Positions 27,908-64,000 of a stretch of 64,000 nucleotides of DNA are shown here, piece by piece. The notes below the pieces were generated by a model, which did not search any database, was not told the origin of the DNA, and saw only the letters and a program-made list of their open reading frames with translations. How positions within the stretch are numbered: position 1 is the first letter of the stretch; every line of letters starts with the position of its first letter. A program made the position numbers and the translations under genes. Source of the DNA: a virus; the IMG/VR virus record IMGVR_UViG_3300031873_000003, positions 1-64,000 of that record. One strand, 5' to 3'.

Positions 27908-28612
27908 ATGTCAAAGCATGGTCCGATAGGTGGGGAGTCATGGAGAAGCACGGTCATTACTGGTTACGATAGCTCGGCAGTCAGTCAAAATAAAGACGGA
28001 TCGTTAATGGAGAGGTTGGAGGAACTCCGAAACCTTGTGATGTTGGGAGCGGTCGTTGGTTCCCGAAGTCAAAGTCCGTCAGTATCACCGTCAACGTCTC
28101 CGTCTGCCAGTCCATCCTTGAGTCCGTCAACCAGTCCATCCAAGAGTCCGTCGGCCAGTCCATCCAAGAGTCCGTCTGTCTCACCTTCGGCGTCGCCTTC
28201 CTTGAGTCCATCAGCTTCCGTGTCTCCATCGGCTTCGCCGTCCTTAAGCCCATCGGCCTCCGTGTCACCATCAACGAGTCCGTCAGTTTCTCCTTCTGTG
28301 TCACCTTCTGCATCACCATCCTTAAGTCCGTCGGCTTCGGTATCTCCCTCGGCTTCACCATCCTTGAGTCCGTCGGCTTCCGTATCACCGTCTACGAGTC
28401 CTTCGGTCTCACCTTCCACATCTCCATCACTAAGCCCGTCGGCTTCTGTGTCACCATCTGGATCTCCCTCCTTGAGTCCGTCGGTTTCACCTTCGGGATC
28501 GCCATCATTGAGTCCTTCGGTTTCACCTTCGGGATCGCCATCATTGAGTCCCTCGACCAGTCCATCCAAGAGTCCGTCGGCCAGTCCGTCATTATCCCCA
28601 TCCGGAGCTTGA
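27908..28612 (+). CDS. Ser-Pro repeat protein 1
   Basis: AAAAGGAG precedes MSKHGPIGGESWRSTVITGY; about 55 unique residues are followed by about 44 SPSx tetrads (x = A, L, V, T, K, G) to the end. The tract is likely an ext extended, rigid polyproline-like stalk, rich in hydroxyls that could be glycosylated. Three larger proteins in the window share it. The gene ends next to TnpB debris, so the C-terminus may be truncated. The long open frame on the opposite strand is a by-product of the repeat. Confidence 0.7.
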   Translation: MSKHGPIGGESWRSTVITGYDSSAVSQNKDGSLMERLEELRNLVMLGAVVGSRSQSPSVSPSTSPSASPSLSPSTSPSKSPSASPSKSPSVSPSASPSLSPSASVSPSASPSLSPSASVSPSTSPSVSPSVSPSASPSLSPSASVSPSASPSLSPSASVSPSTSPSVSPSTSPSLSPSASVSPSGSPSLSPSVSPSGSPSLSPSVSPSGSPSLSPSTSPSKSPSASPSLSPSGA

Positions 28613-28613
28613 T

Positions 28614-28841
28614 ATGGGAATAGAAAAGAAAGTGAAATACGTCGAACCTGATTCAAGAAATTCCATCAGGACTTGTTTGTCGTGCGGCGCTTTGTCGGGG
28701 CCGCAAGGATGGGCAGGACTGTCGGTAAGAGAATGGGTGTGTTCGGCATGTGGTGCCGTGTGGGATCGAGACGTAAATTCGGCCCTAAACACCCTTATCG
28801 GGGCGGGTGCCGCCCACGAGGTGCATCATGCAGCAGCATGA
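28614..28841 (+). pseudogene. TnpB C-terminal fragment 1
   Basis: Encodes only the zinc finger and last catalytic region of TnpB: RTCLSCGALSGPQGWAGLSV, then REWVCSACGAVWDRDVNSAL. The RuvC I and II regions are missing. Begins two bases after the Ser-Pro protein stop. Confidence 0.8.
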
Positions 28842-29010
28842 TTGCAGTCAGGAATCTGCTGGGCTTCAGCCCAAGCAGAGGCTCAATGGGCTTGTGGTAA
28901 GGCAATGGTGCTGTAGTGCTTGTGGGGCACATCATGACAGGGATCAAAACTTTGCCAAGAACGCACTATTTGCTGCGCTCGGAACGAGCGTCGAGAAGGA
29001 GGCAGCGTAA
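28807..29010 (+). pseudogene. TnpB C-terminal fragment 2
   Basis: A second, partly overlapping fragment in another frame: LNGLVVRQWCCSACGAHHDR followed by DQNFAKN. It ends with the element's 3' hairpins at 28976-29053. Two TnpB 3' ends thus lie in tandem. Confidence 0.75.
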
Positions 29011-29053
29011 TGGTTGCTTCCAACAGGAATCCCCCGGCTTTAGCCGTGGGGAG
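28976..29053 (+). ncRNA. Omega-RNA-like 3' end (copy c)
   Basis: CGCTC-GGAAC-GAGCG (28976-28990) is followed about 40 bases later by the right-end palindrome CCCCCGGCTTTAGCCGTGGGG and gaggttcaa. The 5-bp stem with a GGANN loop recurs in copies d, e, f and in the intact tnpB. Confidence 0.6.
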
Positions 29054-29148
29054 GTTCAAACAGAAGAAAGATAAGGGGGACAAAGAAAAACTTAATAGAT
29101 ACCGCATTATAGAAAAAGCACGTCTTTTGCGGCCAACAAGGAGAAGTG

Positions 29149-29436
29149 ATGAAATCAGGTTGCCAAACTACACGACCTCATACTCCCTATACGTCAAGAA
29201 AGCAGGCGATTGCAGGTAACATAGCGCTGGCGGCAAGGGAAGGGAGTATCCCTAAGTCGAAGTTGAAGGGTGCGTCCAGGGAGATGGCTAAGGGAATGAC
29301 ACTCAAAGAATTGAGAGGTCACTCAAAGGAGGCCGCCGGGAAGAACCTGCCCTACGCCGTGACGAGGCCGATACTTAAAGCAAAAAACATCCCACTAAGG
29401 GGATATTCTAATATCGGAAAGGAGAACAAAAGATGA
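29149..29436 (+). CDS. Hypothetical basic protein
   Basis: AAGGAG upstream; start MKSGCQTTRPHTPYTSRKQA. Lys-rich, with MTLKELRGHSKEAAGKNLPY near the middle. Overlaps the next gene by four bases. Possibly a small virion or DNA-binding protein; unproven. Confidence 0.55.
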   Translation: MKSGCQTTRPHTPYTSRKQAIAGNIALAAREGSIPKSKLKGASREMAKGMTLKELRGHSKEAAGKNLPYAVTRPILKAKNIPLRGYSNIGKENKR

Positions 29437-36911: not shown

Positions 36912-39900
36912 ATGGCAACAGAAGTAACCCATATAGTTGACCCTGGAGAAGGTGCAGGACACGATTACCATTCCCTATCCTTATGGGAGGCTGGTGAAGT
37001 GGGCGACCTCACGGGCGTAAGGGATGAGATCGCTGTTGCCAAGTGCCGAGCTACAGATGGGGATGCGGATACGACTGCCGTAGTTCTTGACGGTTGGATA
37101 ACTTCCCCCACCCAGTATATCAAAATCTGGACTGATCCTGCGGAATCACATCGCCATGATGGGAAATGGAATACAAGTAAATATCGTCTAACTGTTAGTG
37201 GTGCTTATACAATACAAAATAGTGAAAATTATACGAAAATAGATGGTATCCAATTTTCCGGGAATACGGGCGCCATATATAGGGGTTTGGCAATCGGTGC
37301 TCTTTCAAATTGTATATTAAATGGACTTAATACTAATAATCTTTCTGGTGTGTTACAAGAATCTGGAGGAGCGGTTACTTGTTGGAATGTTGTTGTTTTC
37401 AATTTGGGGACTGGTGCGAGTGGTTTTATTTCTTATACAAATGGTTCTAATTTTCGTAATTGTACTGCTTTTAATTGTGATAACGTAGGTATCGAGAATG
37501 GTTATGCGGATGCTGTAGCAACAAATTGTGTGGCACTTACTTGTGGGTCTTGCTTTGATGGCGGTATTGTTGGAAATTATAATTGTTCCTCAGATACGAC
37601 TGCTCCTGGGGCTAACTCTCTAAAAAGTAAGTCCGCAGCAAATAATTTTGTTGATATAGGTGCCGGAACAGAAGATTTGCATCTAAAACTTGGTGCAGAT
37701 TGTATAGATACAGGAACTGATTTATCTGCTTATTTTACAACTGACATAGATGGTACGACCCGACCGACAGGAGCAAATACCTGGGACATCGGGGCGGATG
37801 AGTATGTAGCTGGTGCAGAATCCCTATCTCCATCTGCTAGTCCTAGTTTAAGTCCATCACCATCCTTATCTCCCAGTGCAAGTTTGTCTCCTTCCGAGTC
37901 GCCATCCCTATCCCCCAGTGCAAGCTTGTCTCCATCTGCCTCGCTTTCGTCTTCTCTTAGTCCTTCGACCTCACCGTCAAAAAGTCCATCTAAAAGTCCT
38001 TCGACCTCACCCTCCAGGAGTCCCTCCAAAAGTCCCTCCAGGAGTCCCAGCGCCAGCCCAAGCTTAAGTCCATCAGCGTCAGCGTCTCCGTCTTTATCAC
38101 CATCTATTTCCCCAAGCATATCTCCTTCGGGATCTCCTTCGTTAAGTGCGAGTATAAGTCCAAGTGAGAGCCCGAGTTTGTCACCTTCGGCTTCGGTAAG
38201 CCCGTCTGTCAGTCCTTCAGTCAGTCCATCGGCATCTCCGTCAATGTCACCGAGTGTATCACCGTCGGCATCGCCTTCCGTATCGCCAAGCCTGAGTCCA
38301 TCAGCTTCTATTAGCCCTTCGCTTAGTCCATCTGCGAGTCCCTCGGAGAGCCCAAGTGAATCACCGTCGTTGAGTCCTTCTGCTTCAGTTTCACCAAGCG
38401 AATTGCCATCTGTATCACCGAGTATTTCCCCTTCGGGATCACCAAGTGAAAGTCCAAGCCTGTCTCCAAGCGTAAGCCCATCGGAATCTTTTTCAGAAAG
38501 TCCCTCAGAGTCGCCATCCTTATTACCCTCGGCCTCTGTGAGTCCTTCTTTGTCCCCATCTGCAAGCGTGTCACCTTCCGAGTCACCATCGTTGAGTCCG
38601 AGCATCTCACCATCGGTATCTCCATCTGCATCCCCATCACTATCTCCATCAGCGAGTATAAGTCCGTCGGTATCTCCATCAGTTTCACCCAGCGAAAGTC
38701 CTTCATTAAGCCCATCGGCTTCCGTAAGTCCCTCGGTTTCACCTTCGTTATCACCTTCTATCAGTCCAAGCATTAGTCCAAGTCTATCACCATCCGTTAG
38801 CCCAAGCAAAAGTCCTTCATTAAGCCCCAGCGCTTCACTATCTCCAAGTGTTTCACCAAGCGTCTCTCCATCAGTGAGTCCCAGTATTAGTCCTTCGGTA
38901 AGCCCCTCATTGTCTCCAAGTGCTTCGGTTTCACCGAGTATCAGTCCATCTCTATCGCCGAGCATAAGTCCGAGTGTTAGCCCAAGTGTTTCACCCAGTA
39001 TATCACCGTCAATAAGCCCATCTGAATCACCATCGTTTTCTCCGTCAGTTTCGCCATCTGTATCGCCAAGCGTAAGTCCTTCAATCAGTCCAAGTTTATC
39101 ACCGTCCCTGAGCCCATCAGTTTCACCATCGGTAAGTCCATCAATCAGTCCATCGGCGTCACCGTCCATGAGTCCGTCTTTAAGCCCCAGTGCTTCTGTC
39201 TCTCCATCAATGTCTCCCTCGGCTTCTCCGAGTTTATCTCCTTCTATTTCGCCATCGGTATCGCCAAGCGTAAGTCCTTCAATCAGTCCATCGGTTAGCC
39301 CGTCTGTAAGTCCGAGCATTAGTCCATCATTAAGTCCCAGTTTAAGTCCTTCAAAGAGTCCAAGTTTAAGTCCCAGTGCATCATTAAGTCCCAGTTTAAG
39401 TCCGTCTTTATCACCTTCCGAGAGCCCTTCACTTTTACCATCGGCTTCGCTCTCCCCGAGCTTGTCACCGAGCGCCAGCCCAAGCGTATCACCATCGGAA
39501 TCTCCGAGCTTATCGCCCTCGGCTTCGGTAAGTCCTTCCATAAGCCCGAGTTTGTCGGCTTCTGAATCTCCCTCGGTATCCCCAAGCTTTAGTCCGAGTG
39601 AATCACCATCCCTGAGTCCATCCGTTAGTCTTTCAATCTCTCCGTCGATCAGCCCCTCGGTTAGTCCGAGCAAATCACCTTCGGTTTCACCCTCTGAGAG
39701 TCCGAGTTTAAGTCCTTCCATTAGTCCATCTCTCAGCCCTTCAGCGAGCGTTTCACCATCGATTAGTCCATCCCTCTCCTTAAGTGAGTCACCATCGGTA
39801 AGCTATAGCCTATCGCCCAGCGCAAGTCCGTCCCTTAGCCCATCGATCTCACCCTCGGAGAGTGCAAGCTTAAGTCCAAGTATCAGTCCTTCGGTCTCTC

Positions 39901-40019
39901 CTTCGGCATCCGAGAGTCCATCAAGGTCGCCCTCAATATCTCCTTCTATGTCTCCGTCTATTGAGGGCGCTATGCTTTTGCAAAATTTTCATTACTACTA
40001 TCAAAACATAGGGGCTTGA
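36912..40019 (+). CDS. Ser-Pro repeat protein 2 with beta-helix-like head
   Basis: Residues 1-300 resemble pectate-lyase-like right-handed beta-helix proteins: YTKIDGIQFSGNTGAIYRGL, NCILNGLNTNNLSG, FRNCTAFNCDNVGIENGYAD, ending TGANTWDIGADEY. Residues about 304-1018 are about 178 SPSx tetrads. The last 16 residues (MLLQNFHYYYQNIGA) are unique and may anchor it. It fits a long fibre: globular sugar-binding or cleaving head plus stiff stalk. The 663-aa frame on the other strand is a repeat artefact. Confidence 0.75.
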   Translation: MATEVTHIVDPGEGAGHDYHSLSLWEAGEVGDLTGVRDEIAVAKCRATDGDADTTAVVLDGWITSPTQYIKIWTDPAESHRHDGKWNTSKYRLTVSGAYTIQNSENYTKIDGIQFSGNTGAIYRGLAIGALSNCILNGLNTNNLSGVLQESGGAVTCWNVVVFNLGTGASGFISYTNGSNFRNCTAFNCDNVGIENGYADAVATNCVALTCGSCFDGGIVGNYNCSSDTTAPGANSLKSKSAANNFVDIGAGTEDLHLKLGADCIDTGTDLSAYFTTDIDGTTRPTGANTWDIGADEYVAGAESLSPSASPSLSPSPSLSPSASLSPSESPSLSPSASLSPSASLSSSLSPSTSPSKSPSKSPSTSPSRSPSKSPSRSPSASPSLSPSASASPSLSPSISPSISPSGSPSLSASISPSESPSLSPSASVSPSVSPSVSPSASPSMSPSVSPSASPSVSPSLSPSASISPSLSPSASPSESPSESPSLSPSASVSPSELPSVSPSISPSGSPSESPSLSPSVSPSESFSESPSESPSLLPSASVSPSLSPSASVSPSESPSLSPSISPSVSPSASPSLSPSASISPSVSPSVSPSESPSLSPSASVSPSVSPSLSPSISPSISPSLSPSVSPSKSPSLSPSASLSPSVSPSVSPSVSPSISPSVSPSLSPSASVSPSISPSLSPSISPSVSPSVSPSISPSISPSESPSFSPSVSPSVSPSVSPSISPSLSPSLSPSVSPSVSPSISPSASPSMSPSLSPSASVSPSMSPSASPSLSPSISPSVSPSVSPSISPSVSPSVSPSISPSLSPSLSPSKSPSLSPSASLSPSLSPSLSPSESPSLLPSASLSPSLSPSASPSVSPSESPSLSPSASVSPSISPSLSASESPSVSPSFSPSESPSLSPSVSLSISPSISPSVSPSKSPSVSPSESPSLSPSISPSLSPSASVSPSISPSLSLSESPSVSYSLSPSASPSLSPSISPSESASLSPSISPSVSPSASESPSRSPSISPSMSPSIEGAMLLQNFHYYYQNIGA

Positions 40020-40732: not shown

Positions 40733-41758
40733 ATGGCTGGAACAGGCACAGGGAAAAGGGTAAGCGTGACTCCGGTTGCGGGGGTAACAAGTCCTCCGGC
40801 AGGAGCCATGAGTATCGGGGGAGATGGTGGCATCATTGACCTGGCAAGAAAGGCCATCCTTGATGATGACATTGAACCCTACTTATGGAGTGGGATTGAA
40901 CTCATCCACTACTTGAACATTATTACCGAAGAGTTATACCGAGAAACGCTTCTAATTGAAGATCGCACCACAACCGCACTTACACAACTGAAACTCTTGA
41001 GCAATCTTAGCGACTATACCATTGACGATAGGGTATTGAACGTCAAGGAAGGCGCCAAGCTGTCCGAGAACACAAACGACAATTATGGCGTGCTAAAACG
41101 AACCTCCCAGGCTTATATGGATCAACTCAAGGCAACATGGCGAGAAATCACAGACATCGCTCCAACACGATTTATCCCTGATTGTGGTAGAGGGTCTTTG
41201 TCTATCTATCCCAAATTTGACGATGAGGGAGAAGTTGTTGGCGCATCAAACATTACTTTCACAGCAGCCACCAAGAAGATATCTAAGGTGGGAGAGGATT
41301 TTACCGCCCACTACGTGGTGGGAGACGAGATTAATGTTTCTGGAACAACCTACAACGACGGATATGTGACGGCAACATTAGTGAGTGCAACGGAAATTAC
41401 TGTTACAGAGACACTTGTTAATGAGACGCTTACCTCGGCAACCTTGCGGAAGGTTCGTGATACCCTTCTGATGGTAGTCAATCGCCTTCCTCTTACGCCA
41501 TTTGTTGTTGCTGATATTACTGCTGTTACCGCTGTTTATCCTGAGATTAAGACCATGTATCATAGGGAGCTTCTTTACGGGATTGGGAGGGAAGCGTTTC
41601 AGAAAGAGGACACCCAAACCCTTGACCTGGCAGCGGCGGATCGAAACGGGAAGAGGTTTGAGGAATTCAAGGATAAAGTCAAGAGGAGCTTGGTGTTCCT
41701 AAATCGATCGGAAAGGCAGGGGAGTTCGGGGAGTTCGGGGATTTGGAAGAGTTATTGA
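40733..41758 (+). CDS. Probable head-tail adaptor
   Basis: Contains IIDLARKAILDDDIEPYLWS, GIELIHYLNIITEELYRETL and late PEIKTMYHRELLYGIGREAF, the helical core of podovirus-type adaptor or DUF6682-like proteins, with a beta insert between. It would join portal and tail. The 3' end has a short GGGGAGTTC repeat coding GSSGSSG. Confidence 0.6.
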   Translation: MAGTGTGKRVSVTPVAGVTSPPAGAMSIGGDGGIIDLARKAILDDDIEPYLWSGIELIHYLNIITEELYRETLLIEDRTTTALTQLKLLSNLSDYTIDDRVLNVKEGAKLSENTNDNYGVLKRTSQAYMDQLKATWREITDIAPTRFIPDCGRGSLSIYPKFDDEGEVVGASNITFTAATKKISKVGEDFTAHYVVGDEINVSGTTYNDGYVTATLVSATEITVTETLVNETLTSATLRKVRDTLLMVVNRLPLTPFVVADITAVTAVYPEIKTMYHRELLYGIGREAFQKEDTQTLDLAAADRNGKRFEEFKDKVKRSLVFLNRSERQGSSGSSGIWKSY

Positions 41759-47725: not shown

Positions 47726-47726
47726 A

Positions 47727-49074: not shown

Positions 49075-49760
49075 GCAGAATCGGAGCATTACTTACGTCT
49101 ATAGATGAACCACAACTCCAAAGATGCCTTACGTCTATAGGTTCCCAGGCAGTTCCATTTTCAGATTTTGTGCATATCAATAACGTAGTTCCTGCGTCTG
49201 CGGCACTTAACTTAGGGATTAGCAAGGTAAGTTCGGAATGGTTCATGTATATTGGGGGAGACTTCATTCTTCACCAAAACGCAGTAGAGGTTGCGCATGG
49301 ATATATCGACCATGAGGGAAATGATCAAATATGTGGATATTGCTTCGGAATTTACGATACGTTCCTGCAATGCACCACCGGATATTGCAATGTGTACCGT
49401 ACCATAGTTTTTAAGCTTGAATTGGCTCGTGACACCCTGTATGACGATAGGCAACTTTCAGGGAGATTAAGAAGGAAGGGGTGGAAGTTTAGGAAACCCA
49501 AGGAAGTTCTTGCTACGCATTTTGATGATCCAAGCGAGTTTCAGGTATTCTGTAGATTTTTCTTTCATGCTAATAAGTTTAACGATGACAACTCTTACGT
49601 CAGGGATAGAATGAACGAGTTACTGAAGGATACGGGAAATCCGTTGTATCAGGTTGGACTTGATGCCTTAAACTTTGCAAAGCTTAAACATAATTATCCC
49701 GGAAGCCCTAATCTGGACTTTAATAAAAAGATGTTTGAGGAATTTAAAAGGAGGGATTAA
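49071..49760 (+). CDS. Glycosyltransferase family 2-like protein
   Basis: Start overlaps the previous stop (ATGA). MSRIGALLTSIDEPQLQRCL, NNVVPASAALNLGI and EWFMYIGGDFILH fit a GT-A fold with a modified D-x-D site (GGD). C-terminal half unique. Confidence 0.65.
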   Translation: MSRIGALLTSIDEPQLQRCLTSIGSQAVPFSDFVHINNVVPASAALNLGISKVSSEWFMYIGGDFILHQNAVEVAHGYIDHEGNDQICGYCFGIYDTFLQCTTGYCNVYRTIVFKLELARDTLYDDRQLSGRLRRKGWKFRKPKEVLATHFDDPSEFQVFCRFFFHANKFNDDNSYVRDRMNELLKDTGNPLYQVGLDALNFAKLKHNYPGSPNLDFNKKMFEEFKRRD

Positions 49761-49767
49761 AGAGAAG

Positions 49768-50529: not shown

Positions 50530-51398
50530 AACTTCTACTTATTCGTTCGGCCAGTTGCAGTGGTCACTCCTACATGGTTCAGTGTTTGCACTACATGACG
50601 GGAATCGAACCGACCGTAGTTCATATTGATAGTTGCCACACGATTGACTATGGCGAGCACGACTACCTTATTTATAATGCATTTTCTAACGAGAGTTACG
50701 CACCGAAGTTTGACACCAAGATTATATATCCAGCCGATGAGCGATTCCATGCGTTCAAGGGCAAAAAGATATTGTTTGATACACACGACGAAGGAAATAG
50801 GGATGGGTTCGAGAGGATGAAGGGTTACGGCTACCCAAGGCTTAAGATAAATCCTGGATATGATTTCATGACTAAGTTCAACGTAGTGGCTGCAATACCA
50901 TTTACGGCATACCATAGATTTTTCTTGAAGTCTCCTGTGCCCAAAACAATTCCCCTGCTCTATTGTGTCAATTGTAAGGGGATTACGTTTCCCCCCAACA
51001 TAAGACCTACGGTATTCGAGAGACTAAAGCCGTTTAATCCATACACTACCAGAACATCCATGAACTATTATGCGGATACGCTAAAGACCGCAAAGATATC
51101 GGTAACTGTGCCGGGATATGGAACTGGATGTAAGTCCCATGTTGAGGCGTTAGCGGCAAGTACACTTCTTTTTTCGTATGATTCTATTAGCATGGTAAAG
51201 ACCTTACCATTCGCAGACCTTGTTGATGGAAAGCATTACATTTCATTTAACCTTGATAATCTTGAGGAGAAATTATCCTTATGCTTATCTGACGATAAAC
51301 TTGTGGAAGAGGTTAGCAGGGAGGGTCATTTGTGCTTTAGGTTGGGTTACGATCCCCGTCGGACGGGGGAGGAGATAGCAAGATGGTTCAGCTCATAG
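50526..51398 (+). CDS. Glycosyltransferase, GT-B/CgeB-like
   Basis: KLLLIRSASCSGHSYMVQCL at the start, and late SVTVPGYGTGCKSHVEALAA, LLFSYDSISMVKTLPF, VDGKHYISFNLDNLEEKL: the C-terminal nucleotide-sugar-binding half of group 1 glycosyltransferases. Overlaps both neighbours. Confidence 0.7.
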   Translation: MKLLLIRSASCSGHSYMVQCLHYMTGIEPTVVHIDSCHTIDYGEHDYLIYNAFSNESYAPKFDTKIIYPADERFHAFKGKKILFDTHDEGNRDGFERMKGYGYPRLKINPGYDFMTKFNVVAAIPFTAYHRFFLKSPVPKTIPLLYCVNCKGITFPPNIRPTVFERLKPFNPYTTRTSMNYYADTLKTAKISVTVPGYGTGCKSHVEALAASTLLFSYDSISMVKTLPFADLVDGKHYISFNLDNLEEKLSLCLSDDKLVEEVSREGHLCFRLGYDPRRTGEEIARWFSS

Positions 51399-52144
51399 AC
51401 TGCTTTATGTTCTTTAATGAGATAGACCTGCTTGAAATAAGATTGAATTCTCTTGCTCCTTACGTCAATCGTTTCGTGCTGTGCGAGATGCCAATAACTC
51501 ATAGCGGTAAACCAAAGCCTCTTTTTTTCCAGGACAATAAGGATAGGTTTAAGGATTTCAATATCACTTATCTGGTGGCGCCCCCCAGGGAAGGTAGTTC
51601 ATGGAAATTGGAGCATTACCAGAGGGATTATTTGTTAAATGGAATTACAGACGTAGACCCAGATGATATTATGTTGATCTCAGACATGGACGAGATTCCT
51701 GACATCAGCAAGTATCACCTCGGAGATGAGGGAGTCTTCAGGCAAAGCATGTATTACTACTACTTTAATGTCTATGTATCCGGAAGTTGGAAGGGGACGA
51801 TTGCGAAAAAACGTAAAAGCTTTGCAAACTTTAATGACATAAGAAATCTTAGAAACAGAATGCCAACCATTGTTAAGCAGGGGGGATGGCATTTTTCCAC
51901 TATGGGAACCGCAGAGGACATTAAGTATAAGATTGAATCTTTCGCCCACATTGAACTGGATAAACCTGAATTCAAGTCCAGGATTGAAGAAAATAGAAAG
52001 AACTTGGTTGATCCTTATAATCGTGGTGCGCCAAATTGGGGCGAGAGAGGACTAAAATTGATAGTGCAGATGCCCAGTGGGCCGCAATGGTTATTAGAGA
52101 ATAGGGAAAAATACGAACATTTATTTTGGAAGGGCGATGCATAG
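51383..52144 (+). CDS. Glycosyltransferase family 17-like
   Basis: LIDCFMFFNEIDLLEIRLNS, VLCEMPITHSGKPKPL, and DDIMLISDMDEIPD match GT17, the beta-1,4-N-acetylglucosaminyltransferase family. Rare in phages. It probably adds GlcNAc-like sugar. Confidence 0.85.
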   Translation: MVQLIDCFMFFNEIDLLEIRLNSLAPYVNRFVLCEMPITHSGKPKPLFFQDNKDRFKDFNITYLVAPPREGSSWKLEHYQRDYLLNGITDVDPDDIMLISDMDEIPDISKYHLGDEGVFRQSMYYYYFNVYVSGSWKGTIAKKRKSFANFNDIRNLRNRMPTIVKQGGWHFSTMGTAEDIKYKIESFAHIELDKPEFKSRIEENRKNLVDPYNRGAPNWGERGLKLIVQMPSGPQWLLENREKYEHLFWKGDA

Positions 52145-52610
52145 CAATAGCATTAAACTTATGCGTTGGTTTAGGGATAAGTATTTACAGGAGTTGAAAG
52201 GATGTACCGTGCTGGATATTGGGTCTAAGGTAGGCAGAACTTCAAGGAATGCTACGTACGGAGGTAGGGTATTTTTTCCCCCAGACTATAATTATATTGG
52301 AATGGATGTTGTTCCGGGAAGAAACGTGACAATAGTGGGATACGATAATCTTCCAGTGTGTGAGGTGGTTGTCAGTGGGCAGGTTATGGAGCATGTGCAG
52401 AGGCCGTGGGAGTGGCTGAAGAATTTGGTGCAATATTACACAAAGTTTATCTGTGTTATTGCTCCGAATACTTGCCCGGAGCATAAGTTTCCTTTCGATA
52501 CATATAGATATTTCACAGATGGAATGCGTGATTTATTTGAGTACGCAGGTATTCGAGAGATTGAAATCAGAATGAGTGGAAATGATACGATAGGAGTTGG
52601 GGGGAAATAA
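52137..52610 (+). CDS. Class I SAM methyltransferase (Methyltransf_11 type)
   Basis: CTVLDIGSKVGRTSRNATYG is motif I, VVVSGQVMEHVQRPWEWLKN the post-motif region. 157 residues. Overlaps the upstream GT17 gene by eight bases. Confidence 0.75.
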   Translation: MHSNSIKLMRWFRDKYLQELKGCTVLDIGSKVGRTSRNATYGGRVFFPPDYNYIGMDVVPGRNVTIVGYDNLPVCEVVVSGQVMEHVQRPWEWLKNLVQYYTKFICVIAPNTCPEHKFPFDTYRYFTDGMRDLFEYAGIREIEIRMSGNDTIGVGGK

Positions 52611-52630
52611 TGCCAAACTTTACGGCAAGC

Positions 52631-52852
52631 TTAATTGCCCTTGGACAATACAACCCAGTCCGTTCCCGACATGTCTCCAGTAGAGATGACCAGGGGGTGA
52701 AGACTTTGGTCTTTGGGCGTGAAAATGACAAGTTTTTCCTGGGACATGACCACATAGGTTCCGTCGTCGGGCCATTCAAGGCGTCTCAGTTTTTTCCCTT
52801 CGAGAAGACTCTCGGTACAATCGGGGAAATCCATGGTGTTTTCTTCGTTCAT
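52631..52852 (-). CDS. Tad2-like (DUF2829) anti-Thoeris protein
   Basis: 73 residues: FPDCTESLLEGKKLRRLEWP, DDGTYVVMSQEKLVIFTP, TGDMSGTDWVVL. This follows the DUF2829 pattern (EGKKxRRxxW ... TP ... DMxxxDW). Proteins of this family, Tad2, sequester the signalling nucleotide of Thoeris defence. The gene lies antisense in the glycan cluster with its own perfect promoter and AAAGGAGG site, as expected for an independently expressed cargo gene. The start at 52852 was chosen over 52975, which lies upstream of the promoter. Confidence 0.65.
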   Translation of the reverse strand: MNEENTMDFPDCTESLLEGKKLRRLEWPDDGTYVVMSQEKLVIFTPKDQSLHPLVISTGDMSGTDWVVLSKGN

Positions 52853-52879
52853 TGTTGGCTGACCTCCTTTTTGGGCAAT

Positions 52880-52909
52880 ATTATACGCAAAGGCGTTGGT
52901 GAATGTCAA
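52880..52909 (-). promoter_or_regulatory. Consensus promoter of the Tad2-like gene
   Basis: TTGACA (52904-52909) and TATAAT (52880-52885) on the minus strand, spacer 18 bases. Confidence 0.85.
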
Positions 52910-52935
52910 GAAAAATCGACTTAGCAAGGGGGTAT

Positions 52936-55377
52936 ATGTCTCAAAAATATAGTTTAAGCGTGTGCATTCCCGCAAGAAACGAACAATTTCTTTCCCTTAC
53001 GGTTGATGATCTCTTGAAGAATATCCGAGGGAATACTGAAATCATCGTGATATGTGACGGGAACTATCCTGACCCTCCCATTAAGGATGACCCAAGGGTA
53101 ACGCTGATCTATCATAGCCAGTCTATTGGACAGAGAGCGGCATGTAATGAGGCGGCGAGGTATTCAAGGGCGAAATATCTGGCGAAGTGTGATAGCCACT
53201 GTTCCTTTGATGAAGGGTTTGATGTGAAGTTACTTGAAGATATGCAGGATGATTGGACGATGGTTCCGATCATGAAAAATTTATGGATTTATGATTGGGT
53301 GTGCGAATCAGGCCACCGTAGGTACCAAGGTCCTTCTGGCCCCTGTACGGAATGTGGTAAACCAACTGTAAGAGATTTGAAGTGGATCGGGAAAAATAAT
53401 CCACAGAGTACAGTATACTGCTTTGACCCCGAACCGCATTTCCAGTACGCAGTAGACTTTAAGAAACGGGATTGGTATCAAAAGTCTCTTAAAGAAACAG
53501 GGTTGACCGAGACAATGAGTTTACAGGGGTCTTTTTTCATGTTAACCCGACAGAAGTATTTTGAACTCAATATGAATGACGAGGAGTTCGAGAACTGGGG
53601 ATCGCAAGGTTTAGAAGTGGCAATAAAAACATGGACTTCTGGGGGAAAGGTTATCTGTTCTCATAAGACATGGTATTCTCACTGCTTTCACACGCAAGGG
53701 GGGGATTTCGGGTTTTCATGGCCTTGTTCTGGTAGACAGGTTGCCCGAACAAAGAGAAGGGCGAAACAAGTTTTCTTCAAACAAAAATGGGGACCACAGC
53801 AAAGATATCCCCTGAGCTGGCTTGTGGAACGATTTTGGCCTACTTCTTATTGGAAAGATGAGGATTTAAGGATTCTCAAGGCGACGGAGGCGACATTCTT
53901 TGACTTTGACCTTAAACTTTTCAGGGTTCCTGGCGTAGTTGGTTCTGTTCCAAGCCCGGTGACAGATCATACATCTTCTGTGTCCTCTCTTGTCGGGAGG
54001 AGGGAGCAAGTGCCCGTTTCTGCAATGAGTCAACCTGGTCTTCCAGGGGATAATCTTATCTCCGGGACCACGGTTCTCTCTGACGTTGGCACGTCGCCTA
54101 CGTTGACCGTCGGCAGCACAGATAGTACAGATACGAAAAGGAGGACTGTTGGGAAAGTGTCTCGTGGGGGGCAAGAGGTGTCCTCTGGGGCAGTGAGTTT
54201 TGGCACGGTTGACGGAAGAAACAGCATTGGAGGGACGGAGATTATCAATCTGCAAAGCCAATCTGAGATGGAAAGGACTACAACAAGCCCTATTATTACA
54301 GACAACATGATCAACAACGGGAATGCCAGTGGCGTAACCCATAGGGACGGGTCCGATAAGCCAGGCGAAAGTCAATCTGTGCATTCTGAAGGTGTGGTTG
54401 TGTCCGATAGAGTTGGCGAGACGTTTGAAGTTGCCAAGCCCATATCCATCCTTGTCGAGACTCCCCAGCCAGTTCCAGCACCCAGTGATAGGGTCAATCT
54501 CAATCTTGGAAAAAATTCTGTCGATGTCTCTTGCGGAAAGGGTGGGGATTATGAGAAAATTGGAATTAGACATGAATCCTCCCATAGTAAGGATTTGTGT
54601 TTAGGATTGGAACGGTGCGACGAACATCGTTCCATTCCGAATACTATACCACAAGCCGATAAATTACGCAAGTGTATAATATTTTACAGTGACAATGAAT
54701 TAGATGAAACGATCTTCAAGGCAGTCCAGAAACAACTCCTTCGATCCCTCAATGGCAACGAACTCATTTCTGTCACTCTCAAGCCAATAGACTTCGGCAA
54801 AAACATCGTCCTCCCCCTAAAACGTAGCCACCTTTCTATGGCACGTCAACAGCTTGCAGGGTTGGAGGCAAGTACAGCAGACATCATATTTTTCGCAGAG
54901 CACGATATTTTATATCCAAAAGAGCATTTTGATTTTACTCCCCCACGTAAAGATGTTTTTTATTACAATTTGAACTGGTACAAGGTTCGCACCCAGGACG
55001 GCCAATCTCTTCACTTTACGGCCAAGCAAGTAAGTGGCCTATGCGCTTACCGAGACATCCTTCTCGACTACTACCGGAAGAGGGTTTCCATGATCGAGAG
55101 TGGAGAGATTGGAGGGAGAAGGCATTTTGAGCCAGGAAGCAATCATTACAGGGATGCGTATGATAAGCTTACCAACCTTGGGTCTGATACCTGGCGATCT
55201 TCCGTCCCTTACGTGGACATTAGGCACAAAGGAACTGTGACCAGGAATATCTTCGATCCCTCTGGTTATCGCAACACGATGAAGGATTGGACAATGGTGG
55301 ACGAGATACCTGGAGGGTGGGGAAAAACAAAAGGAAGATTTTGGGAGTTCTTGCAGGAGGCGGTCGATGCCATATAA
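52936..55377 (+). CDS. Double glycosyltransferase ORF joined through antisense HNH DNA
   Basis: Residues 1-330 are a GT2 enzyme (LSVCIPARNEQFLSLTVDDL, VICDGNYPDPP, YLAKCDSHCSFDEGF). Residues about 570-813 are a second transferase-like domain (IIFFAEHDILYPKEHFDF). The roughly 230 residues between are a Ser/Thr/Val-rich translation of the reverse complement of an HNH gene. At the other cluster end the two domains are separate genes (41774 and 43571). Start at 52936 after GGGGG; 52903 is an alternative. Confidence 0.75.
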   Translation: MSQKYSLSVCIPARNEQFLSLTVDDLLKNIRGNTEIIVICDGNYPDPPIKDDPRVTLIYHSQSIGQRAACNEAARYSRAKYLAKCDSHCSFDEGFDVKLLEDMQDDWTMVPIMKNLWIYDWVCESGHRRYQGPSGPCTECGKPTVRDLKWIGKNNPQSTVYCFDPEPHFQYAVDFKKRDWYQKSLKETGLTETMSLQGSFFMLTRQKYFELNMNDEEFENWGSQGLEVAIKTWTSGGKVICSHKTWYSHCFHTQGGDFGFSWPCSGRQVARTKRRAKQVFFKQKWGPQQRYPLSWLVERFWPTSYWKDEDLRILKATEATFFDFDLKLFRVPGVVGSVPSPVTDHTSSVSSLVGRREQVPVSAMSQPGLPGDNLISGTTVLSDVGTSPTLTVGSTDSTDTKRRTVGKVSRGGQEVSSGAVSFGTVDGRNSIGGTEIINLQSQSEMERTTTSPIITDNMINNGNASGVTHRDGSDKPGESQSVHSEGVVVSDRVGETFEVAKPISILVETPQPVPAPSDRVNLNLGKNSVDVSCGKGGDYEKIGIRHESSHSKDLCLGLERCDEHRSIPNTIPQADKLRKCIIFYSDNELDETIFKAVQKQLLRSLNGNELISVTLKPIDFGKNIVLPLKRSHLSMARQQLAGLEASTADIIFFAEHDILYPKEHFDFTPPRKDVFYYNLNWYKVRTQDGQSLHFTAKQVSGLCAYRDILLDYYRKRVSMIESGEIGGRRHFEPGSNHYRDAYDKLTNLGSDTWRSSVPYVDIRHKGTVTRNIFDPSGYRNTMKDWTMVDEIPGGWGKTKGRFWEFLQEAVDAI
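53866..54573 (-). CDS. HNH homing endonuclease, antisense within the glycosyltransferase ORF
   Basis: GGGAGGATTC precedes the ATG. EIDPITGCWNWLGSLDKDGY, HRLTFAWLIGPVPMG, VVDHVVCNNRACCSPFHLRL are the HNH core of phage homing enzymes, followed by two repeats of CxxGHLLPPP...RxCxIC. The good ribosome site and clean family match say this is the real gene in this interval. Confidence 0.85.
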   Translation of the reverse strand: MSNSNFLIIPTLSARDIDRIFSKIEIDPITGCWNWLGSLDKDGYGLGNFKRLANSIGHNHTFRMHRLTFAWLIGPVPMGYATGIPVVDHVVCNNRACCSPFHLRLALQIDNLRPSNAVSSVNRAKTHCPRGHLLPPTRHFPNSPPFRICTICAADGQRRRRANVRENRGPGDKIIPWKTRLTHCRNGHLLPPPDKRGHRRCMICHRAWNRTNYARNPEKFKVKVKECRLRRLENP

Positions 55378-55609
55378 AAAATACCCACCCGTAGATGAAG
55401 CGACGATGGACAGAAAAAGATTCGAGGGACATCATTCCGTGTGCCAGACCCTAAGAGATATTTATCATCTTACGGATGATCCGGAGATTAAGCTTAAGTG
55501 CAGGTTGGCGGTGGCAATGACGAAAGCTATGCACGAGCGCCTAAAATGGTACAAGGCAAAGAACCTTGCCGAAGCAGAAATAAGGGAGAAAAAGGATGCC
55601 TCAACTTAA
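55367..55609 (+). CDS. Small helical protein (paralogue of 44223)
   Basis: CQTLRDIYHLTDDPEIKLKC and AVAMTKAMHERLKWYKAKNL. Overlaps the genes on both sides (AAGGATG at the 3' junction). Always follows the second transferase domain, so it may be a partner of it. Function unknown. Confidence 0.6.
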   Translation: MPYKKYPPVDEATMDRKRFEGHHSVCQTLRDIYHLTDDPEIKLKCRLAVAMTKAMHERLKWYKAKNLAEAEIREKKDAST

Positions 55610-56579
55610 CTTTGAATATAAAAACCTTATAGGCATTTCAAGGCAGAAGGATACCAACAGAATTCCGGTAGGATATGTTGCCTACGCCATGAATGTTGAT
55701 TCGGATGATGAAAAGAAACTTCGTAGACGCAGGGGTCTTACTTCTGTTTCCACGGTGAATACCCATAGCGTATGGTCAAACAGGGATATCTGTCTATGTG
55801 TCCAGGGAGGCGTCTTAAAAGAGGTAACAATTAACCTTGTTACCAACACAGCCACCTATGTTACCCTGTTATCTGGGGCGGGCGATACACCCATGATCTT
55901 TCGGGAAGCGGGGGATATGGTCTTTTTTTCCAATAGCGACGTTTTTGGATATATCCGGGAACATGCGGTACATGGTATTTCAGAAGTTAGCGAGACCTTT
56001 AAGGTTCGGATGGTGGGAGGACACCTGATGGAATATTGGGATTCTCGCCTATGGGTATTTCAGGATAACATTCTGATTTATTCCGATGCCACAGAACCAA
56101 TGGTTAGAGACGAGAGGCATAACTTCGTGACGTTCAATGGCCGTGGAAGGATGCTTGAGGCCGTCAGGGACGGGATTTACGTGAGCGATAACGAAAGGTG
56201 TGGTTTTCTTCAGGGAGGAGCGGGAGACCCTCCCAAGTTCAATTATACCGAGGTCTGTCCTTCTCCATGTATCGAAGGCATGGCAGTCTCAAGTGTTGAA
56301 CAATTAGCAGGAATATCGGTTAAGGTGGTATTCTGGGTTACAGAGGAAGGTTGTTACATGGGACTGCCAGGGGGGCAAGTGAATAAGGTTACGGGGGATC
56401 ATTTTTACATTGAAGGGGCGTCAATAGGGAGGATGATGGTTTTGAATAGGTCTTTTCCGGATCATACAAGTATTGACCAGCTATTAGGGACCTATGACTT
56501 ATGGCCTGGCTATGGAGGAATGGAAATAGAGTTAGATGTTCCGGCGACGGACGTTGACGGTCGCATTACTGCGGCTTAA
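55596..56579 (+). CDS. Probable tail or neck protein, beta-propeller-like
   Basis: 327 residues, beta-rich with repeated aromatic strands: AYAMNVDSDDEKKLRRRRGL, PMIFREAGDMVFFSNSDVFG, GHLMEYWDSRLWVFQDNILI. The MN(V/I)D...RRGL opening is common in phage tail-associated propellers. Gene location after the glycan cluster supports a virion role. Confidence 0.6.
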   Translation: MPQLNFEYKNLIGISRQKDTNRIPVGYVAYAMNVDSDDEKKLRRRRGLTSVSTVNTHSVWSNRDICLCVQGGVLKEVTINLVTNTATYVTLLSGAGDTPMIFREAGDMVFFSNSDVFGYIREHAVHGISEVSETFKVRMVGGHLMEYWDSRLWVFQDNILIYSDATEPMVRDERHNFVTFNGRGRMLEAVRDGIYVSDNERCGFLQGGAGDPPKFNYTEVCPSPCIEGMAVSSVEQLAGISVKVVFWVTEEGCYMGLPGGQVNKVTGDHFYIEGASIGRMMVLNRSFPDHTSIDQLLGTYDLWPGYGGMEIELDVPATDVDGRITAA

Positions 56580-57454: not shown

Positions 57455-60400
57455 ATGCCTGAATCTGCTTCGATGAGTCCGAGCGAATCGCCGAGCGAAT
57501 CACCTTCGTTGAGTCCATCGGCCTCTGCATCACCATCGATTTCGCCGTCGCTCAGCCCGAGCGCAAGCGTCAGTCCATCGATTTCGCCTTCGAGATCACC
57601 CTCCGGGAGTCCTTCGGCGTCACCATCGTTAAGTCCGAGCGCAAGCATTTCGCCTTCGACGTCACCATCCAAAAGTCCGTCGGAGTCGCCATCGAGAAGT
57701 CCATCCAAAAGTCCTTCTGGAAGTCCTTCAATGTCTCCAAGCGAAAGTCCCTCAAAATCGCCTTCGGCGTCACCATCCTTAAGTCCGTCAACGTCACCAT
57801 CGTTAAGCCCCAGCGCAAGCCTTTCTCCGTCCCTGAGTCCTTCGGCCAGCTTGTCGCCGAGTGCAAGCCCAAGCGTATCACCCAGCATGTCACCCTCTGC
57901 ATCGCCATCGTTAAGTCCAAGTCCCGTGATAGATATTATTAAGGCTGGATGTTCGATAAGCAGCATAAGCTCAAATAATGGACGAAAACTTGTCCGAGAT
58001 AGCACAGGAAGATTGCACGTTGTTTATCATAGGGTTGCAACTGTCTGGAATATTTATCATTCGTATTCGGATGACAGCGGACAAACATGGACGGAAGAAG
58101 CGATTACAAGTGATGCATCGTACAACCAGTGGAGTCCATCCATAGCCATCGATAGTAGCAATCACTTGCATGTGGTATGGCATGGAACATCTGTCTTATC
58201 CACCACTATTGACCAAATCAGATATTCTAAATACGAAGGTTCGTGGAGTACGCCGGTTGACTTAACCGGGGAAGTTTACACGCAGGCACTTCCTTCGATA
58301 GCCATTGATAGCGGTGATCATATACATGTGGTTTGGGAGGGAATGTCCTCCGTGTCCCCAAGTTACACTCAGGTTAGGTATTCTCAGTACGAATCTTCCT
58401 GGAGTGCGCCTACCAACCTAACCAGCGGAAACCTCTGGAGGTGGAATCCCTCCGTAGCCATTGATAGTGGGAATAATTTGCATATTGTTTGGGGGGAAGG
58501 CCCCGATAGTCTTACCAGCCAAATAATGTATTCTAAGGGTGCGCCCTGGAGCCCCGTCCAGTTAAGCGATGGCAGTTATATGCAGGCTGACGCCTCTATT
58601 GCCATCGATAGCAGTAATCATGTGCACGTTGTCTGGGAGGGTAGGTCTCCCGCTCTCCCGGACTATAATCAAATCAGGTATGCTAAATATGAAGCTTCGT
58701 GGAGCACGGTTGTCGATTTAACTGGGACGAAGACCGTGGGTTATGATCAGCAAAGCCCTTCCATAGCGATCGATACCGGTGACCGGTTACATGTAGTGTG
58801 GTATGGCGCATCGGTGGTTTCTCCAAGCGCTTATCAAATCAGGCATACCAAATATGACGGTTCATGGAGTACGGACACTGACTTAACTACTGATAGTGTG
58901 TCTCAATATTATCCTTCAACTCTATGGGCAAACAATATTTATTCGGTCAATGCACAGGGTTATTGTTTCGCCTACATGGATGACACAACCCTAACGTTTT
59001 ATGCGAGCGACGAAATATCTTTCTATGGAATGGCTTCCCCCAGCTTATCGCCAAGCCTGAGCCCAAGCAAATCGCCAAGTCAATCTCCATCACTCTCTTC
59101 TTCGGGCAGCCCAAGCTTAAGTCCGAGCCCGTCGCCATCGCTTTCACCCTCGGCCTCGGAAAGCCCTTCGGCGTCACCATCGTTGAGTCCAAGCGCAAGC
59201 CTATCTCCTTCGGCCTCTGTCAGTCCAAGCACATCACCCTCGCTATCTCCATCGGCCTCTATTAGCCCAAGCGAGTCACCGTCGAGAAGTCCCTCTAAAT
59301 CACCTTCGGCGTCACCATCTATAAGCCCTTCGGCGTCACCATCGTTAAGTCCGAGCGCAAGCCTATCGCCTTCGGCCTCTGTCAGTCCAAGCGCATCTCC
59401 TTCGCTATCTGCAAGTTTGAGTCCATCGCCTTCGGCCTCTGTCAGTCCAAGCGCATCTCCTTCGGTGAGCCCAAGCCCAAGTGCGGGAACCCTTATCTGT
59501 GATTTAGCCTTTGCTCTTAGCGTTCCGGCAATAGAGGTTAGCGGAAAAATCGCTGGCCCAGGGTTGATAGGACCATCGCTTGAATTACCGGCGATTGTGG
59601 TTTCAGGCAATATCGTTACCGGCGGGGCGTTTTCGGCAATCCTTGAGCTTGCACCTCATGCATCAGGAACTATTCGTGTTGGAGGGTTGTTTTCGGGGAC
59701 AATCAATGTTCCCATTGAGGTATCAGGAACGATTTATAGTGGTGGCGGATTGGTTGCCTCGTTAATCCTTCCTGCGATACATGTTGATGGCCTCATTGCC
59801 AAAAACACGACTGGGTTTGAAATCACTGTTCCCGTGATAACCCTTTCGGGCACGATCATTACCGGAAGAGTGGTTAGTGGCGGAGTAAGCGTTCCTGCGA
59901 TTAAGGTTCTGGCAACCATCGGCCATTATAATTCGCTGACATTTGACCTCGATTTGCCTGAGATAACTACCAACCTTTTTATTATGGGAGCGCAAAAGAT
60001 CACGGTTCAAGGCGCTCCTCTTCGGAAGGCGTTCGTTGTTAATTTAGCTCATTTCGGGGTGACAGAATACTCTGGATACTCTTTCAATTCATTTGCTAAC
60101 TACCATTTTAGTAAAACCTACATAGGCGCCAGCGAAGAAGGTATTTTTGTGCTGGACGGGGATGACGACAATGGCGTTAGGATCAATGCTACAATTCAAC
60201 CAGGGAATGAAGACCTTTGGTCACAGACGATAAAGCGACTTAGGGAGGGTTTTGTAACGATGAGGGGTGGGCCAATTTCCATCGAACTGATTCTTGACGA
60301 AGGAAGGTTAGACCCGGTGACGAGGGATTTAGAGTATGTCGAAAGTACGATTCATGAAGAGCGATTTAAAATATCACGGGGGTTGAAGAATAGATTTTTT

Positions 60401-60490
60401 TCTGTGATTTTTAAAAACTTAGGTGGGAATGACTTTAGCCTTGAGTCTTTCCGATTTTTTTGCGATGAGATTCAAAGGAGAAAACGTTGA
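57455..60490 (+). CDS. Ser-Pro repeat protein 3 with Asp-box propeller
   Basis: Order: SPSx block (about residues 8-165); a sialidase-like propeller (165-530) with an Asp box SDDSGQTW and at least six repeats of SIAIDSxxHxHVVW...QIRYxKYExSWS; a second SPSx block (about 530-680); beta-repeats (VPAIEVSGKIAGPGLI types); and a C-terminal globular domain (about 850-1011). It fits a fibre with a glycan-binding or glycan-cleaving head between two stalks. Confidence 0.75.
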   Translation: MPESASMSPSESPSESPSLSPSASASPSISPSLSPSASVSPSISPSRSPSGSPSASPSLSPSASISPSTSPSKSPSESPSRSPSKSPSGSPSMSPSESPSKSPSASPSLSPSTSPSLSPSASLSPSLSPSASLSPSASPSVSPSMSPSASPSLSPSPVIDIIKAGCSISSISSNNGRKLVRDSTGRLHVVYHRVATVWNIYHSYSDDSGQTWTEEAITSDASYNQWSPSIAIDSSNHLHVVWHGTSVLSTTIDQIRYSKYEGSWSTPVDLTGEVYTQALPSIAIDSGDHIHVVWEGMSSVSPSYTQVRYSQYESSWSAPTNLTSGNLWRWNPSVAIDSGNNLHIVWGEGPDSLTSQIMYSKGAPWSPVQLSDGSYMQADASIAIDSSNHVHVVWEGRSPALPDYNQIRYAKYEASWSTVVDLTGTKTVGYDQQSPSIAIDTGDRLHVVWYGASVVSPSAYQIRHTKYDGSWSTDTDLTTDSVSQYYPSTLWANNIYSVNAQGYCFAYMDDTTLTFYASDEISFYGMASPSLSPSLSPSKSPSQSPSLSSSGSPSLSPSPSPSLSPSASESPSASPSLSPSASLSPSASVSPSTSPSLSPSASISPSESPSRSPSKSPSASPSISPSASPSLSPSASLSPSASVSPSASPSLSASLSPSPSASVSPSASPSVSPSPSAGTLICDLAFALSVPAIEVSGKIAGPGLIGPSLELPAIVVSGNIVTGGAFSAILELAPHASGTIRVGGLFSGTINVPIEVSGTIYSGGGLVASLILPAIHVDGLIAKNTTGFEITVPVITLSGTIITGRVVSGGVSVPAIKVLATIGHYNSLTFDLDLPEITTNLFIMGAQKITVQGAPLRKAFVVNLAHFGVTEYSGYSFNSFANYHFSKTYIGASEEGIFVLDGDDDNGVRINATIQPGNEDLWSQTIKRLREGFVTMRGGPISIELILDEGRLDPVTRDLEYVESTIHEERFKISRGLKNRFFSVIFKNLGGNDFSLESFRFFCDEIQRRKR

Positions 60491-62466: not shown

Positions 62467-62474
62467 GAGGATCA

Positions 62475-62840
62475 ATGGACATAAAACGTAATCCCGCTGG
62501 ATTAGGATGGATGGTAAGGTACGATAATGGAACGTATACAATATTTTACACACAAAAGGAGGCAGTGAAATGTATGGCAAAAATTGATACAGTAAAAGCG
62601 ATCATCAATGCAGTTAAAAGTCTGGCAACAGCAACCGATCAAGCAACAGATTTAGTCAGCGAATACTGGGATGTTGGAACATTCGTTGACGAGGATGTAG
62701 CAGCGTTGGGCATCACTGCTGCACAGCTTACATCCTGCATTACGTTATTAGAGCAGGTAGATAAACTCATGACGAACCAAGAGACAAGCCTATCTATGTA
62801 TAGAACTACCCTGAATCAAGTTCGAAGGGTTGCAACGTAA
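62475..62840 (+). CDS. Hypothetical protein
   Basis: GGAGG precedes MDIKRNPAGLGWMVRYDNGT. A second good site (AAAGGAGG) precedes an internal Met at 62574 (MAKIDTVKAIINAVKSLATA), so two products are possible. The C-terminal part is helical. Small proteins of this kind sit near fibres in phages; no function assigned. Confidence 0.5.
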   Translation: MDIKRNPAGLGWMVRYDNGTYTIFYTQKEAVKCMAKIDTVKAIINAVKSLATATDQATDLVSEYWDVGTFVDEDVAALGITAAQLTSCITLLEQVDKLMTNQETSLSMYRTTLNQVRRVAT

Positions 62841-62914
62841 ATTATAGAATATACGTTGCTTACGATACAACGAACTGGAGACCGATTAACTAAGTAAATA
62901 AGAAGGGAGATCCC

Positions 62915-63229
62915 ATGAAGATTAATTTTAGTCAAGCGTTAAAGGCGTTGGATGGAACACCAATCTCAAGACTTGACGGAAAGGGAGAATTTACCCTCAA
63001 GTTTGTTTCCCAGGAAGCGTTACTTTTATCCTTTCAGGACGAACAGGGGTTGGGGGGAGAAGAGAAAACCAGGAGGTGGGTTTTGGCTACGATGATTGAG
63101 GCAAACCCAGAGAAAATTGATTTAACCTCGGAGCAGATAGCGTTGATTAAGAAACTTATTGGCAAGGCTTATGGGCCGCTTATCGTTGGTCAGGCATGGG
63201 AGTTGTTGGAGGCGGGAGTCACTGGTTAG
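62915..63229 (+). CDS. Hypothetical protein
   Basis: GGGAGATCCC upstream; MKINFSQALKALDGTPISRL, then a beta strand and a helical C-terminus (IALIKKLIGKAYGPLIVGQA). 104 residues. This is the general form of small phage chaperone-like proteins, but no firm assignment. Confidence 0.55.
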   Translation: MKINFSQALKALDGTPISRLDGKGEFTLKFVSQEALLLSFQDEQGLGGEEKTRRWVLATMIEANPEKIDLTSEQIALIKKLIGKAYGPLIVGQAWELLEAGVTG

Positions 63230-63242
63230 GGGGAACTGAACT

Positions 63243-64000
63243 TTGGCCGACATCATAAAGTATGGAACTGGAATTCTATATGGTACGGGTCATCTATATG
63301 GAGAATATATTCCCTCGGCCTCGATATCTCCGAGCCTTTCGCCCTCTAAGGGTCCTTCGGTTTCTCCATCCCTAAGTCCTTCGGCTTCTATAAGTCCTTC
63401 GTTATCTCCATCAGTCTCACCTTCAATCAGTCCTTCGGTCTCACCTTCGGTCTCACCCTCTTTAAGCCCATCTGTTAGTCCAAGTTTATCACCGTCGGCC
63501 AGTCCATCCTTGAGTCCATCATTGAGTCCTTCTGCTTCCTTGAGTCCCAGTCTAAGTCCGTCTAAATCTCCTTCTGTATCACCCTCGGTATCACCTTCAC
63601 TATCACCCTCTCTTAGTCCGAGTGAATCTCCGAGTCTCTCTCCTTCGGCCTCATTATCTCCATCATTGAGTCCGTCTGTTTCACCGTCCGTTAGCCCATC
63701 GATTTCACCGAGCCTATCACCGAGTTTATCTCCGTCGGAAAGTCCGAGTCTTTCACCCTCTGCGAGTTTAAGCCCATCTGAAAGTCCGTCACTTAGTCCA
63801 AGTGTATCGCCTTCTTTTTCGCCATCGATGAGTCCGTCTTTATCACCTTCGGAGAGCCCTTCGTTAAGTCCAAGTGCTTCGCTCTCTCCGAGCCTGTCAC
63901 CAAGCAAATCTCCAAGTCTGTCACCATCGGCTTCGCTCTCACCCAGCTTGTCACCGAGCGAAAGTCCTTCTGCCAGTCCTTCTGTAGGCAGTTTTTCCTT
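63243..64000 (+). CDS. Ser-Pro repeat protein 4 (partial)
   Basis: TTG start behind GGGGG; ADIIKYGTGILYGTGHLYGE is a short Gly/Tyr-rich head, followed at once by SPSx tetrads that run to the window edge. The shortest unique N-terminus of the four. The frame is cut at 64000. Confidence 0.65.
   Translation, partial: MADIIKYGTGILYGTGHLYGEYIPSASISPSLSPSKGPSVSPSLSPSASISPSLSPSVSPSISPSVSPSVSPSLSPSVSPSLSPSASPSLSPSLSPSASLSPSLSPSKSPSVSPSVSPSLSPSLSPSESPSLSPSASLSPSLSPSVSPSVSPSISPSLSPSLSPSESPSLSPSASLSPSESPSLSPSVSPSFSPSMSPSLSPSESPSLSPSASLSPSLSPSKSPSLSPSASLSPSLSPSESPSASPSVGSFS

Follow-up and report, generated by a model that had tools for sequence, protein, structure and literature searches.

Mucin-type O-glycosylation, which is started by the polypeptide N-acetylgalactosamine (GalNAc)-transferases (ppGalNAc-Ts) of glycosyltransferase (GT) family GT27, is usually described as eukaryotic. 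At the loci of serine-rich repeat glycoproteins such as GspB, Fap1 and PsrP, the adhesin gene is accompanied by accessory Sec genes and by GT genes dedicated to it. These glycoproteins and their GT loci are the subject of PMC5578698 and PMC7948813. Mycobacteriophages are reported to carry glycans on their virions, at the C-termini of capsid and tail-tube proteins (Freeman et al. 2023, as cited in PMC12619734). Here we describe a phage locus in a 64,000-base stretch of DNA (the window; bases 1-64000 of the 93,790-base IMG/VR record IMGVR_UViG_3300031873_000003, G000 below), in which four genes encode stalk proteins with long Ser-Pro-Ser-x (SPSx) tracts and a GT gene cluster includes two homologues of the ppGalNAc-Ts. 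We think it likely that the phage itself codes for a module that applies mucin-type O-glycosylation to its stalks. Genes are named by their lower window coordinate and lie on the plus strand unless stated otherwise.

The cluster protein 41774 (41774-42778) and the N-terminal half of the two-domain enzyme 52903 (52903-55377) are, by sequence and structural model, homologues of polypeptide GalNAc-transferases. The GT27-like domain of 52903 spans amino acids (aa) 12-328 and is followed by a linker and a second GT-A domain (aa ~586-824). Searches of the PDB found GALNT2 with the 52903 domain itself (phmmer, E 4e-7), PGANT9/GALNT9 with a four-sequence profile (E 2e-10) and GALNT1 with a 31-sequence profile (E 2e-14), GalT1 (5hea, a putative glycosyltransferase) being among the weaker matches of the last. 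All 50 best PDB fold matches of an AlphaFold2 model of the domain (pLDDT 92.8) were ppGalNAc-Ts (E 1e-16 to 5e-14, TMq 0.55-0.67). D97 and H99 of its DSH motif, together with H260, are invariant in 31/31 homologues; H260 aligns with the His of the GALNT GH.FR motif, and we take the three residues to correspond to the GALNT metal ligands. The other enzyme, 41774 (PF00535, E 2e-13), has a DDH metal motif and belongs to paralogue branch II, as judged by profile alignments and a tree. The likeness to GALNT1 and GALNT2 extends to the fold, the D.H metal motif, the third metal-ligand His and an adjoining gene for a Ser/Pro-rich tandem-repeat protein. The phage enzymes differ from the GT27 enzymes in their low identity (~20%), an altered WGGEN motif, the Ser rather than Thr of the adjoining tracts, their being phage-encoded, and the C-terminus of 52903, which is another GT-A domain instead of a ricin-type lectin domain (no Pfam match to the latter in 52903). 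This C-terminal part and the stand-alone protein 43430 (43430-44230, start probably near 43568) make up a second family, characterized by the pattern 'YYT.NR...E[HD]D.LY', that has a GT-A fold according to alignment and fold search; neither has a Pfam match.

All four SPSx-tract proteins listed in a preliminary description of this DNA were confirmed by SPS counts. In 27908 (27908-28612), a 42-aa head is followed by a tract (28034-28612) that runs to the C-terminus, and in 36912 (36912-40019) a 731-aa tract (37794-39986) accompanies a head that has no family match and was read as a beta-helix in the preliminary description. The order in 57455 (57455-60490) is tract, Asp-box/BNR-like domain (a weak match), tract and virion structural domain, and 63243 (63243-64000) runs on beyond the window for 1.45 kb, to position 65450 of the record. 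Defined by Ser at every second residue, the tracts cover aa 43-235 of 27908, 295-1025 of 36912, 1-165 and 515-685 of 57455 and 18-619 of 63243. The earlier estimate of roughly 44 to 178 units was slightly off in the counts, which we measured as 42, 157, 70 and 129 SPS, respectively, the last for the full gene. The tracts contain 892 Ser, at nearly every second residue. Because the 402 SPS units comprise 345 different 12-mers at the DNA level, and because TCN and AGY Ser codons are both found at both Ser positions of the units, the tracts are not a recent DNA repeat, which points to conservation of the pattern at the protein level. A TnpB-like zinc-finger remnant, recognized by eye, lies just 3' of the first SPSx gene, at ~28650-28840.

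The C-terminus of 57455 matches the virion structural protein family phrog_26502 (E 1.9e-13), and a PDB search with this protein gave chiefly low-complexity matches (circumsporozoite protein) and one marginal structural protein. In other phages, Ser-alternating tracts occur inside a head-closure protein Hc3 (L291 13982-15709; phrog_578, E 4e-58), inside a virion structural protein (L341 13313-15637) and behind laminin-G-like and glycine-rich heads. The tract carriers are thus, as far as their sequences tell, virion proteins, whereas the carriers in serine-rich repeat systems are wall-anchored adhesins. The two kinds of system resemble each other in alternate-position Ser, in GTs encoded beside the adhesin gene and in variable extra GTs; GT4 (PF00534), the family of the GtfA/GtfB-like initiating pair, had no match among the cluster proteins scanned. 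Linkage of phage-encoded GTs to virion structural genes is also found in phage virion glycosylation. In mycobacteriophages the glycan carriers are likewise virion proteins, and here, where we infer glycosylation from the genes, the differences are the long dedicated Ser tracts and the GT27-like enzymes. We found no description of a pairing of GT27-like enzymes with Ser tracts in the open-licence literature.

The preliminary description had proposed a survey of the co-occurrence of SPSx tracts and GT clusters, and the outcome was positive in both directions, with controls. DNA-pattern scans of IMG/VR yielded 67 loci with true SPSx tracts, after microsatellite (SP)n contigs admitted by the first pattern had been removed by the rule that x is not Pro. 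From these we picked 32 SPSx contigs of 25-100 kb, and contrasts with 18 pattern controls were assessed by Fisher tests. GT2 genes were present in 30/32 SPSx contigs and 3/18 controls, so that the many SPSx phages without GTs that would have spoken against the earlier proposal did not appear. The GT27-like domain was found in 26 of the SPSx contigs and one of the controls, and the second GT-A family in 27 and one. The sole control with a GT27-like match (G045) encodes a SPSATPSVTPSA (SPSATPSV) repeat protein that abuts the cassette. Among 40 contigs chosen by a random 14-mer and 10 further controls, none had the GT27-like domain (0/50).

For the reverse direction a profile was required, as a single-sequence search for related loci with 41774 gave no match. 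Scanning viral contigs with the profile gave at least 563 GT27-like places, the best 80 loci of which were checked for tracts, and since most of the first seeds came from SPSx contigs, we ran a second scan that was seeded with cellular homologues (at least 504 places, 79 loci checked). A Ser-alternating tract was present in 67/80 loci of the first scan, on the same strand in 67/67 and within 1 kb in 59/67 (median 140 bases), and in 62/79 loci of the second, on the same strand in 62/62 and within 1 kb in 53/62. Pooled, 129 of 159 sampled loci combine a GT27-like gene with a same-strand tract, the two scans overlapping and some contigs being common to both locus sets. Two or more GT27-like genes were found in 73/80 loci of the first scan. 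Random viral loci of at least 7 kb had no Ser-alternating tract (0/83), these loci being shorter on average (11.2 vs 15.6 kb). Over 36,002 aa of tract, Ser fills 94% of alternate positions and the other position is free.

Close relatives of the phage were found by searching with its major capsid protein (86-91% identity): G001 (37 kb), which has a GT cluster, and G002 (145 kb), G003 (88 kb) and the short contig L010, which are cluster-free (86-89%). In G001 the cluster lies between the same two structural genes as in G000, and its 27908 homologue bears SPSx. In G002, G003 and L010 the matches to these two genes, adaptor (40733) and Hc3 (55596), are 13, 13 and 63 bases apart with no GT cluster between them, and no SPSx tract was seen in the available sequence. 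Cluster and tract thus go together: G000 and G001 have both, and the other three have neither. The C-terminus of 57455 recurs in G002 and G003 on a tract-free protein, and the proteins found at the places of 57455 and 63243 in these two genomes have recognizable C-termini with different repeats (the likeness to 63243 was judged by eye), which suggests stalk exchange at fixed positions among relatives. No homologue of 36912 was found in G001-G003. The counterparts of SPSx proteins at 49392-50534 and 53245-54183 of G002 have other degenerate repeats (IDIPAL..., AHANAIDG...).

Beyond this clade, the 52903 domain had no tblastn match in 50,697 isolated-phage records, so that, at tblastn sensitivity, the system seems to escape phage work that relies on culture. 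GT27-like homologues of 50-58% identity are present in Patescibacteria assemblies, several of them with SPSx proteins, and in the Woesebacteria metagenome-assembled genome (MAG) chromosome record CP066693.1 the cassette adjoins tatC. A quick tree shows two paralogue branches, with cellular sequences scattered among the viral ones. GT27-like and Ser-alternating tract genes were also seen in L470, L472, L467 and L482 (Woesebacteria, Microgenomates and one Micrarchaeota MAG), where the tract genes could possibly encode surface glycoproteins of ultra-small cells.

The GT cluster of G000 (41774-55609) is set between a head structural/adaptor-like gene (40733-41758; phrog_399 structural protein, E 1.7e-9) and a head-closure Hc3-like gene (55596-56579; phrog_8040, E 7e-25). 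It lies between the stalk genes, as given in the preliminary description, although one of them, 27908, is far upstream. Next to 41774 are an NAD-dependent epimerase/dehydratase (42799-43560; PF01370, E 6e-16), 43430 and a small cassette protein without a Pfam match (44223-44513), which by eye resembles the small cassette protein at the other end (55367-55609; 55% identity to its G001 counterpart). Full-length TnpB (IS605 OrfB; 44531-45721, minus strand; PF01385, E 2.5e-27) is an insertion within the cluster and stands outside the system. It is followed by a weak GT2-like glycosyltransferase (GT2_4; 45823-46572; PF13704, E 7e-5, below cut-off), two methyltransferases of the Methyltransf_24 family (46569-47129, PF13578, E 1.5e-16; and 47132-47725, PF13578, E 1.6e-14, with a homologue in the G001 cluster), an asparagine-synthase/PP-loop amidotransferase-like protein (47727-48452; PF00733, E 2.5e-20) and a radical SAM protein (48427-49074; PF04055, E 2e-4, and TIGR04317, E 2e-13, both below cut-off). 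Two GT2 glycosyltransferases (49038-49760, PF00535, E 1.3e-5, with a homologue in G001; and 49675-50529, PF00535, E 5e-11), a protein without a Pfam match (50526-51398), a GT17 glycosyltransferase (51383-52144; PF04724, E 1e-25) and a weakly matching methyltransferase (52137-52610; PF13489, E 0.0016, below cut-off) precede 52903. Pfam-type scans thus bore out the GT, epimerase, methyltransferase, PP-loop and radical SAM content listed earlier, some members falling below cut-off, and 41774 and 52903 count there as GT2 or GT2-like, as do 49038 and 49675. The list needed correction in that the C-terminal third of 52903, like 43430, belongs to the further GT-A-fold family and in that the TnpB gene interrupts the cluster. 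Cluster content differs between G000 and G001.

We propose that the GT27-like enzymes (41774 and the N-terminal domain of 52903) would put the first sugar on Ser of the SPSx tracts, and that the second GT-A domain (52903; 43430) and the products of the variable genes (GT2/GT17, epimerase, methyltransferase, amidotransferase and radical SAM) would go on to assemble a modified glycan specific to the phage. The outcome would be long, stiff, sugar-coated stalks on the particle, bearing lectin-like, propeller or beta-helix heads. That the phage glycosylates its own SPSx fibres had been suggested in the preliminary description, and the two-way linkage and the class of the initiating enzyme support this. 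Its observed basis consists of the tracts and their virion carriers, the homology of the enzymes, the linkage of the genes and the relatives that have neither cluster nor tract; what we infer from this is glycosylation of the tracts, its sugar, the sequence in which the enzymes act and a role in extended adhesion, shielding or both. Some phages, then, probably make sugar-coated, mucin-like fibres.

Several points weigh against this reading. GT27-like loci without a Ser tract make up 13/80 and 17/79 of the two scans, many of them on short contigs; 5/32 SPSx contigs have no GT27-like match and one more has a weak match only; a tract is nearby in 1/10 of the distant cellular homologues (L473-L482); and the within-clade contrast is one of two genomes with three, some contigs being fragments. 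The ppGalNAc-Ts usually prefer Thr as acceptor, whereas the tracts are of Ser, and Thr occupies only 0.75% of Ser-register positions. The W and G of the WGGEN motif are mostly kept, but E-N is changed to Q-G (WGSQG) in 52903, and 41774 diverges further; the sugar donor may therefore not be GalNAc. Because the tracts are of Ser and the motif is altered, the enzymes should not yet be called GalNAc-transferases. Thr substitution at Ser positions had been considered as proof of O-glycosylation and was dropped because Thr is rare. Thr-rich membrane-anchored proteins were seen in L551 and L559 and are not counted as evidence.

Alternatively, the GT cluster could remodel host surface polysaccharide, masking receptors or excluding superinfection, with the SPSx tracts as unmodified spacers. 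Phage GTs that alter host O-antigen are known, and most cluster genes would fit polysaccharide synthesis too, but this explanation does not predict the same-strand linkage in 129/159 loci, the joint absence in relatives or the homology to polypeptide GTs, and the pair of GT27-like gene and tract also occurs in Patescibacteria records where no phage module is evident around it; we consider this explanation unlikely. The stalk and GT genes might also simply travel together in a hypervariable island, with no enzyme-substrate relation, as would fit the interleaving of viral and cellular homologues in the tree, the varying cluster content of G000 and G001 and the transposon-derived gene inside the cluster. 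However, the coupled part is specific (GT27-like gene, second GT-A family and Ser tract) while other genes vary, the coupling is seen in cell genomes as well as in divergent phages, and alternate positions retain Ser through both codon families, all of which make mere co-travel quite improbable. We give very little credence to glycosylation of phage DNA, in the form of hypermodified bases. GTs of phages that act on DNA have been described (Pyle et al. 2024, as cited in PMC12619734), but thymidylate synthase/hydroxymethylase was above cut-off in 0/30 records, G000 included, in a search in which control genomes matched, there was no Tet/JBP match in a search that lacked a positive control, and the linkage to Ser tracts would be left unexplained. 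None of these alternatives accounts well for the linkage, and a dedicated module that glycosylates the stalks is the simplest reading.

Other features of the record include a large terminase whose C-terminal part is ~47-50% identical to the terminases of Bordetella phage BPP-1 and several other phages. The terminase gene (21056-23728) contains a LAGLIDADG intein (~aa 69-420), which is missing from G002 and G003 and apparently present in G001. Tandem repeats of 36 bp (ATTGAAACCCAA..GGAATGCGAGCGA) are found at 16853-16935 and 19879-20177, and a protein resembling IscB by eye (RuvC-like start and HNH motif) is encoded outside the window on the minus strand (G000 86215-87570).

Among the uncultured phage contigs sampled, well over a hundred thus encode homologues of an initiating enzyme of mucin-type O-glycosylation next to mucin-like stalk genes, and so do Patescibacteria assemblies. 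More tentatively, there may be a mobile prokaryotic mucin module, undescribed before and common to many uncultured phages and Patescibacteria, in which a pair of GT27-like paralogues is combined with a new GT-A family and Ser-alternating stalks. It would furnish both virions and cells with genuine mucin-type O-glycoproteins, and a common origin of its GT27-like enzymes and those of animals is possible. If active, the module would offer a simple testable substrate in SPSx peptides such as SPSASPSVSPSL, as well as prokaryotic enzymes for producing O-glycosylated repeats. It would also explain a recurrent, so far unexplained gene set of environmental phages and suggest how virions extend and mask their receptor-binding heads.

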